Shown in pieces: positions 3-5,500 of a stretch of DNA of 64,000 nt. Every line of letters starts with the position of its first letter. Within the stretch, counting starts at the first letter, position 1. The stretch is from assembly GCA_009694195.1 (NCBI GenBank), contig SHVQ01000005.1, positions 1 to 64,000 of the forward strand, written 5' to 3'. A program made the position numbers and the translations under genes. Below the pieces are notes generated by a model. That model had not been told where the DNA came from. It searched no databases and saw only the letters and a program-made list of their open reading frames with translations. Source of the DNA: Rhodospirillales bacterium. GTDB taxonomy: Bacteria > Pseudomonadota > Alphaproteobacteria > Rhodospirillales > SHVQ01.

Positions 3-140
<138 letters not shown>

Positions 141-143
141 GAC

Positions 144-182
144 AAGGGCCTCGGGGAGATCTCCTCGAGGCCCTTTGTTTTT
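144..182 (+). terminator. Rho-independent terminator after tRNA-Ala
   Basis: AGGGCCTCG pairs with CGAGGCCCT around an inner GGGAGATCTCC self-complementary segment, and the hairpin is followed by TTGTTTTT. It is placed to end the tRNA transcript. Confidence 0.9.
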
Positions 183-275: not shown

Positions 276-392
276 GCCGCTTGAAGTGACTCCGCCGCGC
301 CCACACGTTGGAGTGACCGCCCTTCAACCGGGGAATCCTCATCCATGCTCGTTGAGCACATTTGGACGGCGAACGATTACCGCAATTTCAAT
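276..392 (+). repeat. Direct repeat, upstream copy (promoter and 5' end of gloB)
   Basis: This 117-bp segment matches 1064–1180 at 115 of 117 positions; the differences are at 310/1098 and 353/1141. It contains the gloB upstream region plus the first 16 codons of gloB. The two copies are 788 bp apart and flank the DinJ/YafQ toxin–antitoxin pair. Similarity stops sharply at base 392. Confidence 0.95.
345..392 (+). pseudogene. Truncated 5' fragment of gloB
   Basis: ATG 345 begins MLVEHIWTANDYRNFN, identical at protein level to the first 16 residues of the intact glyoxalase II gene at 1133. The reading frame then enters unrelated sequence. The only change within the shared codons is synonymous (GTT instead of GTC for Val3). 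It is a duplication remnant rather than a functional gene, although its copied promoter could still drive transcription into the toxin–antitoxin pair. Confidence 0.85.
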
Positions 393-426
393 CGCGGGAC
401 CTCGTGCGATCGCGGGGTAGTCCTCG

Positions 427-455
427 TTGATACTGTTCCCCAGGTGTGCTACAAG
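427..455 (+). promoter_or_regulatory. Candidate promoter of the toxin–antitoxin pair
   Basis: TTGATA at 427–432 is followed 17 bases later by TACAAG at 450–455, a moderate match to sigma-70 spacing. A perfect GCGATCGC palindrome lies just upstream near 406–413 and could be an operator for the antitoxin. A strong ribosome-binding site, GGAGGTGATC (467–476), precedes the antitoxin start at 481. The promoter assignment is inference from consensus only. Confidence 0.35.
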
Positions 456-480
456 CGCCCGGACATCGGAGGTGATCGTT

Positions 481-738
481 ATGTCCAAGTCGGCGATGAT
501 CCGTGCCCGCATGGAGCCGCGCGTGAAGGCCGAGGCCGAGGCCGTTCTTGACCGGCTGGGGCTGTCGCCGGCCGAGGCGATCCGGCTCTTCTACAGGCAG
601 GTGAGCCTCCACCGGGGGCTGCCGTTTCCCGTCCGCATCCCGAACGCGCGCACCCGCAAGGCCATGCAGGACGCCCTTGCCGGCCGAAATCTCACGGAAT
701 GGCCCGACCTTAAGGCGCTCAAGATCGCCCGCCGCTGA
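481..738 (+). CDS. dinJ: RelB/DinJ-family antitoxin
   Basis: An 85-residue protein of the RelB/DinJ ribbon-helix-helix family. The N-terminal half (about residues 5–45, containing MIRARMEPRVKAEAE and GLSPAEAIRLFYRQV) fits the DNA-binding dimerisation domain. The middle LPFPVRIPN is the typical DinJ segment linking to the toxin-binding tail. The start was chosen because GGAGGTGATC precedes ATG 481 at ideal spacing; an in-frame upstream ATG at 427 has no such site. The stop TGA shares one base with the toxin start, so the pair is translationally coupled. Such antitoxins bind and neutralise the partner toxin and autorepress the operon. The pair lies inside a direct repeat upstream of gloB. Confidence 0.9.
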   Translation: MSKSAMIRARMEPRVKAEAEAVLDRLGLSPAEAIRLFYRQVSLHRGLPFPVRIPNARTRKAMQDALAGRNLTEWPDLKALKIARR

Positions 739-1007
739 TGCGGCGAATCCGGACAACCCGGCAGTTCGAGCGCGATCTGAAGCGCGCTCGAAAGCGCGGG
801 TGGACGCTCCGGAAGCCATGGACGCTCGTTGAGATTCTCAGCCGCGATGGACGGCTCGATCCGCGCTTTCGCCCCCATCGATTGGCCGGCCGCTGGCGCG
901 GGTTCATGGAGTGCCACGTCGAGCCGGACTGGCTCCTGGTGTGGATGGACGACGGCGACAGCCTGGTCCTCGCGCGGACGGGCACACACGCGGATTTGTT
1001 CGGCTGA
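738..1007 (+). CDS. yafQ: YafQ-family mRNA interferase toxin
   Basis: An 89-residue RelE/YafQ-type toxin, a ribosome-dependent endoribonuclease that cleaves mRNA during translation. The residues reported as functional in E. coli YafQ (His50, His63, Asp67, Trp68, Arg83, His87, Phe91) are all present here at a constant offset of three: His47, His60, Asp64, Trp65, Arg80, His84, Phe88. The catalytic site is therefore intact, and the protein is expected to be toxic unless bound by the DinJ-like antitoxin encoded immediately upstream with a one-base overlap. The second copy of the gloB promoter repeat begins 57 bases after its stop. Confidence 0.93.
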   Translation: MRRIRTTRQFERDLKRARKRGWTLRKPWTLVEILSRDGRLDPRFRPHRLAGRWRGFMECHVEPDWLLVWMDDGDSLVLARTGTHADLFG

Positions 1008-1063
1008 CGAAAGGCACCTCCGGCGTCCGCGGCACGTTGCGGCACCGTTGTCGTCGCCGCGGT

Positions 1064-1180
1064 GCCGCTTGAAGTGACTCCGCCGCGCCCACACGTTAGA
1101 GTGACCGCCCTTCAACCGGGGAATCCTCATCCATGCTCGTCGAGCACATTTGGACGGCGAACGATTACCGCAATTTCAAT
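1064..1180 (+). repeat. Direct repeat, downstream copy, leading into intact gloB
   Basis: This is the partner of 276–392, with 115 of 117 bases identical. It contains the 69 bases upstream of gloB and the first 16 gloB codons, and it continues into the intact gene. Recombination between the copies would delete the toxin–antitoxin pair and leave one normal gloB. Confidence 0.95.
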
Positions 1181-1924
1181 TACCTGATCGCGTGTGCGGA
1201 GACGGGCGAGGCGCTGGCGATCGATCCGCTCGATCACCGGAAGTGCCTGGCGCGCGCGCGCGCGCGCGGCTGGACGATCACGCAAATTCTCAACACCCAC
1301 GAGCACGGCGACCACACGGGCGGCAACGCGCCCGTCATCGAGGCGACGGGGGCGAAGCTGCTCGCGCACAAAGGCGCGAAGGACCGCATCGCCGGCATCG
1401 ACCGGGGCTTGGGCGCCGGCGACGTGATCAAGGTCGGCCGCACGGTCGATCTCGAATGCCTGGATACCCCCGGGCACACCATGAGCCACATCTGCCTGCT
1501 CTCGCGCACGGATGAGCCCGCGCTCTTCTGCGGCGACACGCTCTTCAACGCAGGCGCCGGCAACTGCCACTCGGGCGGCCACCCGGAAGCGCTCTACACG
1601 ACGTTCGCGACCCAGCTCGCGAAGCTCGCCGATTCGACGCGCGTCTACCCCGGCCACGACTACATCGCCCGCAATCTCCAGTTCACCCTCGACCGCGAGC
1701 CCGACAACCGGGAAGCCGCCAAGCTCTCGCAAAAGGCCGAGCGCCAGGACCCGGAGCACCCGATCGTCTCCACCCTCGGCCTGGAGAAGGAGATCAACAC
1801 GTTCTTCCGCCTGCAAAGCCCGAGCGTGATCAAGCGGCTCCGGGGATCGTTCCCCGACCTCCCGGACCATCCGGACGCGAAAACGGTGTTCGTCAAGCTC
1901 CGCGAGCTTAGGAACAAGTGGTAG
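1133..1924 (+). CDS. gloB: Hydroxyacylglutathione hydrolase (glyoxalase II)
   Basis: A 263-residue metallo-beta-lactamase-fold enzyme. The metal-binding motif THEHGDH is at residues 55–61, with later ligand motifs DTPGHTMSH, FCGDTLF and YPGHDY. It hydrolyses S-lactoylglutathione to lactate and glutathione, the second step of methylglyoxal detoxification in the cytoplasm. Length and C-terminal region (EKEINTFFR) are normal for the family. The first 16 codons and upstream region are duplicated at 276–392. The intact copy keeps its own upstream region, with GGGGAA about 10 bases before ATG 1133 as a possible ribosome-binding site. Confidence 0.95.
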   Translation: MLVEHIWTANDYRNFNYLIACAETGEALAIDPLDHRKCLARARARGWTITQILNTHEHGDHTGGNAPVIEATGAKLLAHKGAKDRIAGIDRGLGAGDVIKVGRTVDLECLDTPGHTMSHICLLSRTDEPALFCGDTLFNAGAGNCHSGGHPEALYTTFATQLAKLADSTRVYPGHDYIARNLQFTLDREPDNREAAKLSQKAERQDPEHPIVSTLGLEKEINTFFRLQSPSVIKRLRGSFPDLPDHPDAKTVFVKLRELRNKW

Positions 1925-2522: not shown

Positions 2523-5500
2523 TCACAAGGCGTAGGGATTGAGAACCTCGTCCGAAAGGCGCATCAGCCTTGGGCCTTCCGTCCAGAGCAGGTGGCAGCG
2601 GACGGCGCGGGTGGGGAATATCGGGCGAAGAAGCGAGCGGTAGGCCGCCATCTGGCGGAGATAGAGGACGGGGATCGCGCCTTCGTCGGCGGGCGGGGTC
2701 CGGCTCGTCTTGTAGTCCACCAGGTCGACCTCGGTCGCTCCGATCCGGAGCCGGTCCACCTGGCCGGCGACGACGTGGCCGCCGACCACGCCCGCGAGGG
2801 GGACTTCGGCCCGGCTGCCCTCCCCGAAGAGCGGCGCGAACTCCGGGTGACCGAGCACGGCCAGCGTCTCGGCCGCGATTTCGGCCTGGAGCTTCTTCGG
2901 GAGACCAAGGACGGGGCGCGCGAGCCAATCCTTGGCGGCGGCCGCGCGCCTCGTGGCCGGAACCTGGGGCAGGAGCTGCAGGAGCCGGTGAATGACCAGT
3001 CCGCGCTTGAACCTGGCCCCGCGGTCGGGCCCGAGGGGAGAGCGGACGGCGGGCTCGGCGTCCTCCGGTCTGGACGGCGTGAGCGGCCGGGGCGGGCGCG
3101 GCTCGGCGGCCGGCGGCTTTCGTGCCCACGGTGGCAAATCCTCGAGGGCATGCGGCCGGTTCTCCGTTGCTGCCGCGGCGGGGGCGGCGGTTTGCGCGGA
3201 TGCGACGCGCAGCACGGTCGCTCCGGCGGTCTCGCCTTCGGCGGCGAGGAACGGGTCCTCGGCTTTTTCCGCGATGCCTTGCAGCCCGTCGCGGACGAGG
3301 TCGTACCAGCAGCCGGCCGGCGGCGCCTTCTTGCCCTGCCAGCCGCAGATATAAAGCCGGTCCGCCGCGCGGGTCATGGCGACATAAAGGAGGCGGCGGT
3401 ATTCGGCGTCGCGGCGCTGCTTCGCCTGCTCGATCTCGGCGGTCGCGACCTCTTCGCAGCAGTCGCGGGACGGCGGCCACAGCAACACTTCGCCGCCGCC
3501 TTCCACCCCCGGCCAGAGGAGCGGCGGCGTCGCCGACGGCACCTGCAACGTGTCCGGCAGGAACACGATCGGCGCTTCCAGGCCCTTGGCGCCATGCACG
3601 GTGATCACGCGGACGGCGTCCTCGCGGCTCTCTTCCAACTCGCGCTTCACCTCGACCGCGCCCGCTTCCAGCCAGTGGAGAAATCCCTCGAGGGAGGCGG
3701 GATGGGCACGCTCGAAGGTGAGCGCGAGGTCGAGGAATTCGGCGATCGGATCCTCGGACTCGAGTCCCAGCCGCGCGAGCAGCTTCTCGCGGCCCCGGCG
3801 GGCGCCGAGCACGTGGCTGAAGAACTCGAACGGCGGGCTGTAATCGGCGCGTGCCAGCAGGTCCGATAGCTCGGCGCAGGCGCGCCCGAACGCGGGCTCG
3901 TCGGCCGCCTTCTCCCGCAACGACTGCCACAGCGTTCCGCTCCTGTTGTACGCGAGGCGGAAGAGCGCGTCCTCGTCGAGACCGATCAGCGGACCCTTGA
4001 GCACGGTCGCGAGCGTGAGATCGTCGCCCGGCAAGAGAAGAAAACGCCCGAGCGCGACCAGGTCCATGACCGCCATCTGTTCGGTGAGGACCATGCGGTC
4101 GACGCCGGCGACCGCGACGCGCTGCTCCTTGAGCGCGCGCACGAGATCCTCGACGAAGACCGTCCGGCGGCGGACGAGCACCATGATGTCGCCCGCCCGG
4201 ATCGGCCGGCCCTGGGATTCCAGGATCTCGCGCCCCTGGATCATCCGCCGGATGCGCTTGGCGATCAGGTTGGCGAGCCGCGCTTGCGGCGAGTCAGCCT
4301 CGAAGCGCTCGACCGGCGGTTTCCACGGCGGCGGCGGGTCGGTCGCCTTGGGTACGACCGGCGGCCACAGCTCGACCAGGCCGCCGGCACCCGAGCGCCA
4401 GGCCTCGTGATGGATGGGCGTGTCGTCGAAGGCGACGCCGACGGCCGCTTGGGGCTGAGCGAAGACGGCGTCGATCGCGCTGAGCACGGCCGGCACCGAG
4501 CGGTAGGACGTCGTCAGGTCGACCTCGCGCCAGGGCTGCCCGGCATCGTTCGCCCGCGCGCCGAACCGCTCCTGCATCGCGAGGAAGCCGGCGGGGTCGG
4601 CGCCCTGGAAACTGTAGATCGACTGCTTGCGGTCGCCGACGGCGAATACCGTGCGCGCACCCTCGCGGGCGCCCTGGCCGGCGAAGAACTCCGCCGCCAG
4701 CGCCTCGACGACCTGCCATTGCCCGGGTGCCGTGTCCTGCGCCTCGTCGATCAAGATGTGGTCGATGCCGCCGTCGAGCTTGAACAGCACCCACGGCGCC
4801 ACGCCCGGACGCGCCAGCAGCTCGTTCGCCTTGAGAATAAGGTCGTCGTAGTCGAGCAGCGCGCGGGCGCTCTTCTGCCGGTCGTAGGCGCCCATGAGCG
4901 CGGCCGCCAGCACGAGAAGCGCTTCCGTGGCCTCGGCCGTCACCGCCGCGCGGAATCGGAGCAACGCTTGCCGCAGCCGCTCGGCCTCGGCTTTCAGGAT
5001 CTCGGCGGCGCCGCGCGCCTGCGCGGCCGCATCTTTCGTGATCAGCACTTTCCGCACGTCGGGCGGATTGGCGGACGTGAGATAGCAGGACGCATACTTG
5101 CGGAATGTGCGGACGCGATCCTCTGCCGGGAGCTCCAGCCAGGCGGCGATGCCGAAGGCACGGTCGCCATCGGACTCGGAGCCCAGGTTCAGCGCCTGGA
5201 TGGCGAGCTTGAGGCCGAGCGCGTCGAACGCCGCATCGGCGCTCGCGTCGGCGAGGGCGTTCTCGGAGCGGTCGGCGGCGCGGAGCCCCAGCAGCTTCCG
5301 AATCGTGCGCGCCGCTCCTGCGATGTCGCCCTTGTCGAGCAGGCGCCGGAGGCGGCCCCGCGACGCCGCGAGCGAGCTCATCAGCTCGGCGAACGTCTCT
5401 TCGTGGACGTGGACCGTCACGCGCGCGAGGGCCGCCGAGAGATCGCCGTCACTGCCGCTGCCGCGCGCGCGAGAGAGCACTTCTTCACGGGCGGCACCGA

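Follow-up and report, generated by a model that had tools for sequence, protein, structure and literature searches.

The dinJ–yafQ toxin–antitoxin (TA) operon located near the left end of the window (the whole stretch of 64,000 nucleotides that was analysed) was probably inserted at the 5' end of a gloB gene, duplicating 117 bp of its target. The features of the locus are the following:

60–135, plus strand: tRNA-Ala(GGC), found with ARAGORN
144–175, plus strand: strong terminator of the tRNA transcript, between the tRNA and the repeat (fold z −7.6 and terminator scan)
276–392, plus strand: repeat copy 1, with the truncated gloB' (repeat search, genome search and alignment)
345–551, plus strand: ORF of 68 aa made of 16 gloB codons and unrelated codons, overlapping dinJ (ORF list; no Pfam match)
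393–1063, plus strand: insert of 671 bp with a complete TA operon (from the repeat boundaries)
427–455, plus strand: putative TA promoter/operator, TTGATA-17-TACAAG over TGTTCCCCAGGTGTGC (comparison by eye with homologues)
481–738, plus strand: dinJ, antitoxin of 85 aa (RelB PF04221, 8e-13; TIGR02384 above cut-off)
738–1007, plus strand: yafQ, toxin of 89 aa with a 1-base overlap with dinJ (PF15738, 1e-29; matches solved YafQ chains)
1039–1068, plus strand: hairpin GCGGCACCG/CGGTGCCGC, with its right arm across the 1063/1064 junction (fold scan)
1064–1180, plus strand: repeat copy 2, contiguous with the intact gloB (repeat search, genome search and alignment)
1133–1924, plus strand: intact gloB, hydroxyacylglutathione hydrolase family, 263 aa (Pfam and NCBIfam)

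The two repeat copies form an ungapped direct repeat that matches at 115 of 117 positions (98.3%) with a spacing of 788 bp and a self-BLAST E value of 2.65e-52, and no further long high-identity direct repeats were found in the 64-kb window. The 117-mer has exactly two matches in the whole 2.5-Mb draft genome. Each copy comprises 69 bp of the gloB upstream region and 16 gloB codons; in copy 1 these codons (MLVEHIWTANDYRNFN) are followed by unrelated sequence, and copy 2 continues into the full-length gene. The duplication reported by the initial annotation is therefore real, gloB is present once truncated and once intact as it had stated, and the length of the repeat is not that of a usual transposon target duplication, which it had also pointed out. 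The window starts at base 1 of its contig, in a 73%-complete draft of 49 contigs, so that the left side is unreadable, and the locus occupies the first 1.2 kb; in a metagenome bin, mixed strains or a chimeric assembly where a contig ends could in principle produce such a repeat. We consider an assembly artefact of this kind very unlikely, however, because the copies differ at two positions, each of them is joined to different unique sequence (the similarity stops at 392/1180) and the same architecture is found in other, more complete assemblies.

The only genes in the insert are dinJ and yafQ. Neither a transposase nor an integrase is present and the repeat search of the window revealed no inverted repeats pairing the insert ends, in agreement with what had been read initially. 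The GC content of the insert (67.8%, against a window mean of 67.1%) gives no sign of foreign origin. The hairpin at the right junction hints at a GCCGC microhomology at 1063/1064, its 9-bp stem folding no better than shuffled sequences (z −0.86, not significant). The module itself has the characteristics of the DinJ/YafQ family of type II TA systems, that is, the gene order, the RelB and YafQ domains identified with Pfam and NCBIfam, an antitoxin gene overlapping the toxin gene and an operator-type promoter, and it is unusual in its setting only. Furthermore, YafQ shares H47, H60, D64 and H84 with two aligned solved YafQ-like toxins of H. pylori, positions that we take to have a catalytic role in this toxin family.

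It had been suggested that the repeat could provide the module with the gloB promoter. The putative dinJ promoter was recognised by comparison only, the consensus sigma-70 scan having not flagged it, and its form recurs in front of the dinJ gene at homologous loci from other genomes, L177, L183, L146 and L147 among them. On this comparison the module is predicted to have its own promoter and to be self-sufficient, and as this promoter lies inside the insert the gloB promoter would not be needed, although read-through from copy 1 into the TA module is possible. A link to the tRNA-Ala gene, regarded initially as a common integration target, is not supported either, because the tRNA ends 140 bp before the start of the repeat and outside it, its transcript has its own terminator and the insert has no integrase.

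The initial annotation had also considered a Campbell-type integration. In this scenario a 788-bp circle with dinJ–yafQ and the 117-bp stretch of gloB would have integrated by recombination into the chromosomal gene. A single crossover within the 117 bp would give the structure observed, and homologous excision would be the reverse reaction. Nevertheless, the circle must already have carried the gloB end of the same species at 98% identity, the unit contains no replication or integrase gene, the 788-bp unit was unmatched in 72,556 plasmids and the repeat was unmatched in viral contigs, all of which makes this origin quite unlikely. The accompanying reasoning, namely that recombination between the copies would remove the module and that a relative with a single copy and no TA would reveal the empty site, is sound, and clean excision is itself something that we infer.

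DNA and protein searches with gloB covered 60 relatives, 317 genomes of the same order and further genome contigs. The nearest gloB has 78% DNA identity and an unalignable upstream region, the genomes compared including none from the family of the window's genome. Among the relatives' gloB loci examined, none had dinJ–yafQ at gloB (with one weak dinJ-like match, E 0.02, in L036), none had a duplicated gloB 5' end and none had a tRNA-Ala near gloB; the same arrangement in relatives, which the initial annotation had named as speaking against its reading if it were ancestral in distant ones, was thus looked for and not seen in these loci. Because these gloB loci lack both the TA pair and the duplicated 5' end, the arrangement in the window appears to be derived. 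Relatives such as L041 present the order accD–folC–gloB–(transporter)–trxA–addA, the names having been read from ORFs and not from a family search, and a search of the incomplete source bin for folC, which lies upstream of gloB in the relatives, gave no match.

The gloB protein of the window scores 181 bits on the NCBIfam GSH_gloB model, just below its equivalog cut-off of 200.8, and its closest relatives carry Alpha-, Beta- and Gammaproteobacteria labels at 71–80% identity. Given this score below the cut-off and the spread of the relatives over three classes, it may represent a separate hydroxyacylglutathione hydrolase subfamily. A CG-alternating run (gcgcgcgcgcgcgcg, 1246–1273) within gloB is a possible slippage site.

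We also surveyed 186 TA loci (57 YafQ and 129 RelE/ParE) for direct repeats that flank the toxin on either side within 1.5 kb, and compared them with 731 control windows drawn from gloB loci and from 40 regions, each of 20 kb, in the surveyed genomes. Repeats of at least 50 bp and at least 80% identity bracketed the toxin in 9 of the 186 TA loci and 4 of the 731 controls (Fisher p = 1.6e-4), and no such repeat was present in 177 of the 186; with at least 60 bp and at least 85% the counts were 8/186 and 2/731 (Fisher p = 8e-5), and without the integron, IS and whole-gene paralogue TA cases they were 4/186 and 2/731 (p = 0.018), p values that serve as guides because windows overlap and genomes are related. 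The case classes were assigned after seeing the matches. The recurrence of target duplication around TA modules has modest statistical support. None of the control matches is a host-gene-end duplication: judged by eye from ORFs, they correspond to an IS remnant (L092), paralogues (L379), internal pentapeptide repeats (L049) and a REP-like sequence (L360). In three further TA modules (the first three below) the bracketing repeat is a duplicated segment of the host gene next to the module, namely gcvPB, thiC or a PEP-mutase-like gene:

L337: ParD/ParE behind the intact 3' end of gcvPB, with the final 169 bp of the gene repeated on the far side of the TA at 93.5%
L280: ParE module behind thiC, a 99-bp part of which recurs on the far side of the TA at 89%
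L309: ParD/ParE flanked on one side by a PEP-mutase-like gene and on the other by a piece of the end of this gene
L147: dinJ–yafQ homologue (yafQ 60% identical) in a 232-bp repeat of 94%
L335: 58-bp bracketing repeat, set aside and unclassed

In L147, 140 bp of the repeat are a dispersed palindrome and the other 90 bp, which occur at these two sites only, count as target. The palindromic repeat of about 140 bp (L147, 923–1064) is present in dozens of copies in its genome (G359) and is MITE- or REP-like. The bracketing repeats of the following loci can be explained otherwise and were set aside: L282 and L298, which are IS-linked, L176, in which the repeat consists of tandem whole-gene paralogues, and L193, which is an attC array. 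The last one bears on whether the window unit could be a gene cassette of an integron, bounded by attC-like repeats, since in L193 (G914:C1) a dinJ–yafQ pair lies within a superintegron-type array with attC-like repeats of 118–121 bp and a similar unit size. The window repeat, in contrast, is gloB coding and leader sequence without an attC-type fold or paired RYYYAAC/GTTRRRY core sites, the only GTTRRRY (351) is lost from copy 2, and we give this explanation practically no weight.

The analogue in L309 (G266), which belongs to the same order as the window's genome, has an empty site. Five congeners (G271, G272, G282, G291 and G292) contain one copy of the sequence and no TA, with collinear flanks, and the left flank with copy 1 and the right flank with copy 2 map onto one segment (for example, 1003–1568 and 1501–2756 of L387). 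In the alignment the empty genomes have one full-length copy, and in G266 copy 2 is full and copy 1 lacks about 48 bp internally. If an insertion duplicated about 160 bp of its target, this is the pattern to be expected. Two other congeners, G270 and G046 (L392 and L395), carry a 78% similar ParDE next to this PEP-mutase-like gene and have no recognisable second copy, so the history of this locus exceeds one event.

The empty site also has a bearing on the order of events at gloB. If the TA pair had already been upstream of gloB and the 117-bp piece of the gloB 5' end had later been copied beyond it, by an ectopic event or a template switch, the product would be identical, and as the left flank is unalignable in the relatives it does not reveal which event came first. 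Nevertheless, this scenario would require two independent events, the insertion of a TA and a short duplication that landed precisely on its far side, none of the relatives examined has a TA next to gloB, and the L309 analogue has the single-copy empty site that the insertion model predicts. For these reasons we regard a later copying of the gloB piece as unlikely.

We therefore infer that the window locus originated by insertion, and the steps could have been as follows. A self-contained 671-bp TA operon with its own promoter would have entered gloB at its 5' end with duplication of 117 bp of the target, so that an intact gloB was kept together with the upstream region closest to it. The joining could have involved a break or a template switch with a long overlap, perhaps at the GCCGC microhomology. 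Cells that lose a TA module are punished by the surviving toxin, the principle known as addiction. Recombination between the copies would delete the antitoxin gene and expose the cell to the toxin that survives, and we propose that both copies persist because cells in which the module has recombined out are punished in this way (post-segregational killing).

A second TA module adjoins gloB sequence in the same genome. In L113 (G000:C46) a HigBA module adjoins a gloB 3' fragment (2858–3642, minus strand, and 3681–3891, plus strand). The fragment has about 69 codons with 65% aa and 72% DNA identity to the window gloB, and its best match is to L034 (75% aa). The pair is bracketed by a 34-bp direct repeat of 82% that occurs nowhere else in the bin, and one possibility is that this TA was transferred together with part of a donor's gloB.

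A footprint together with an empty site in congeners offers a concrete explanation, for one locus at least, of how lone TA pairs come to be in chromosomes without a mobile element, and it links TA mobility to that of restriction–modification (RM) systems. As a tentative generalisation, which we hold with less than even confidence, ordinary type II TA modules might, like RM systems, move by themselves into or beside conserved genes through insertion with long target duplication; the repeats, normally lost fast, might survive because of punishment by the toxin. If this is true, target duplications around addiction genes are a signature of survivorship and not the mark of a special recombinase; moreover, such footprints make the addiction idea testable.

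Several known systems can be compared with this locus. The elements that target tRNA genes have a tRNA 3' end in the repeat and an integrase, both of which are absent here. The TA cassettes of superintegrons resemble it in having a TA unit of similar size between repeats of about 120 bp, as in L193, but those repeats are attC-like integron sites and the ones in the window are host-gene sequence. The ccdO157 system, described in PMC2654758 as a chromosomal TA that is a genomic islet by itself, is likewise a lone chromosomal TA operon without a mobile element; the passages on it in that paper mention no flanking target duplication, which is the main feature in the window. For TA systems in general, the same passages state mobility and not long target duplication, and no prior example of a TA insertion with long target duplication was found in open-licence papers, although examples may exist elsewhere. 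The closest likeness is to RM systems, which, according to three papers that come from the Kobayashi group or cite it, insert with long and variable target duplications of the order of 100 bp and are unlinked to any known mobile element (PMC3874152; PMC3031569; PMC1643837), the original descriptions being Nobusato et al. 2000 and Furuta et al. 2010 as cited in PMC3874152 and PMC3031569. The differences lie in the cargo and the host, RM systems in H. pylori and a type II TA (DinJ/YafQ) in an alphaproteobacterium, so that the window locus is a TA variant of the long-target-duplication insertion and not an RM member. The two have in common an addiction-type gene pair without a transposase, an insert bracketed by a direct repeat of the target of the order of 100 bp and an intact copy of the target; an empty site in relatives is shared by the L309 analogue, and in this respect the window itself differs, its empty site not having been seen among the genomes compared.
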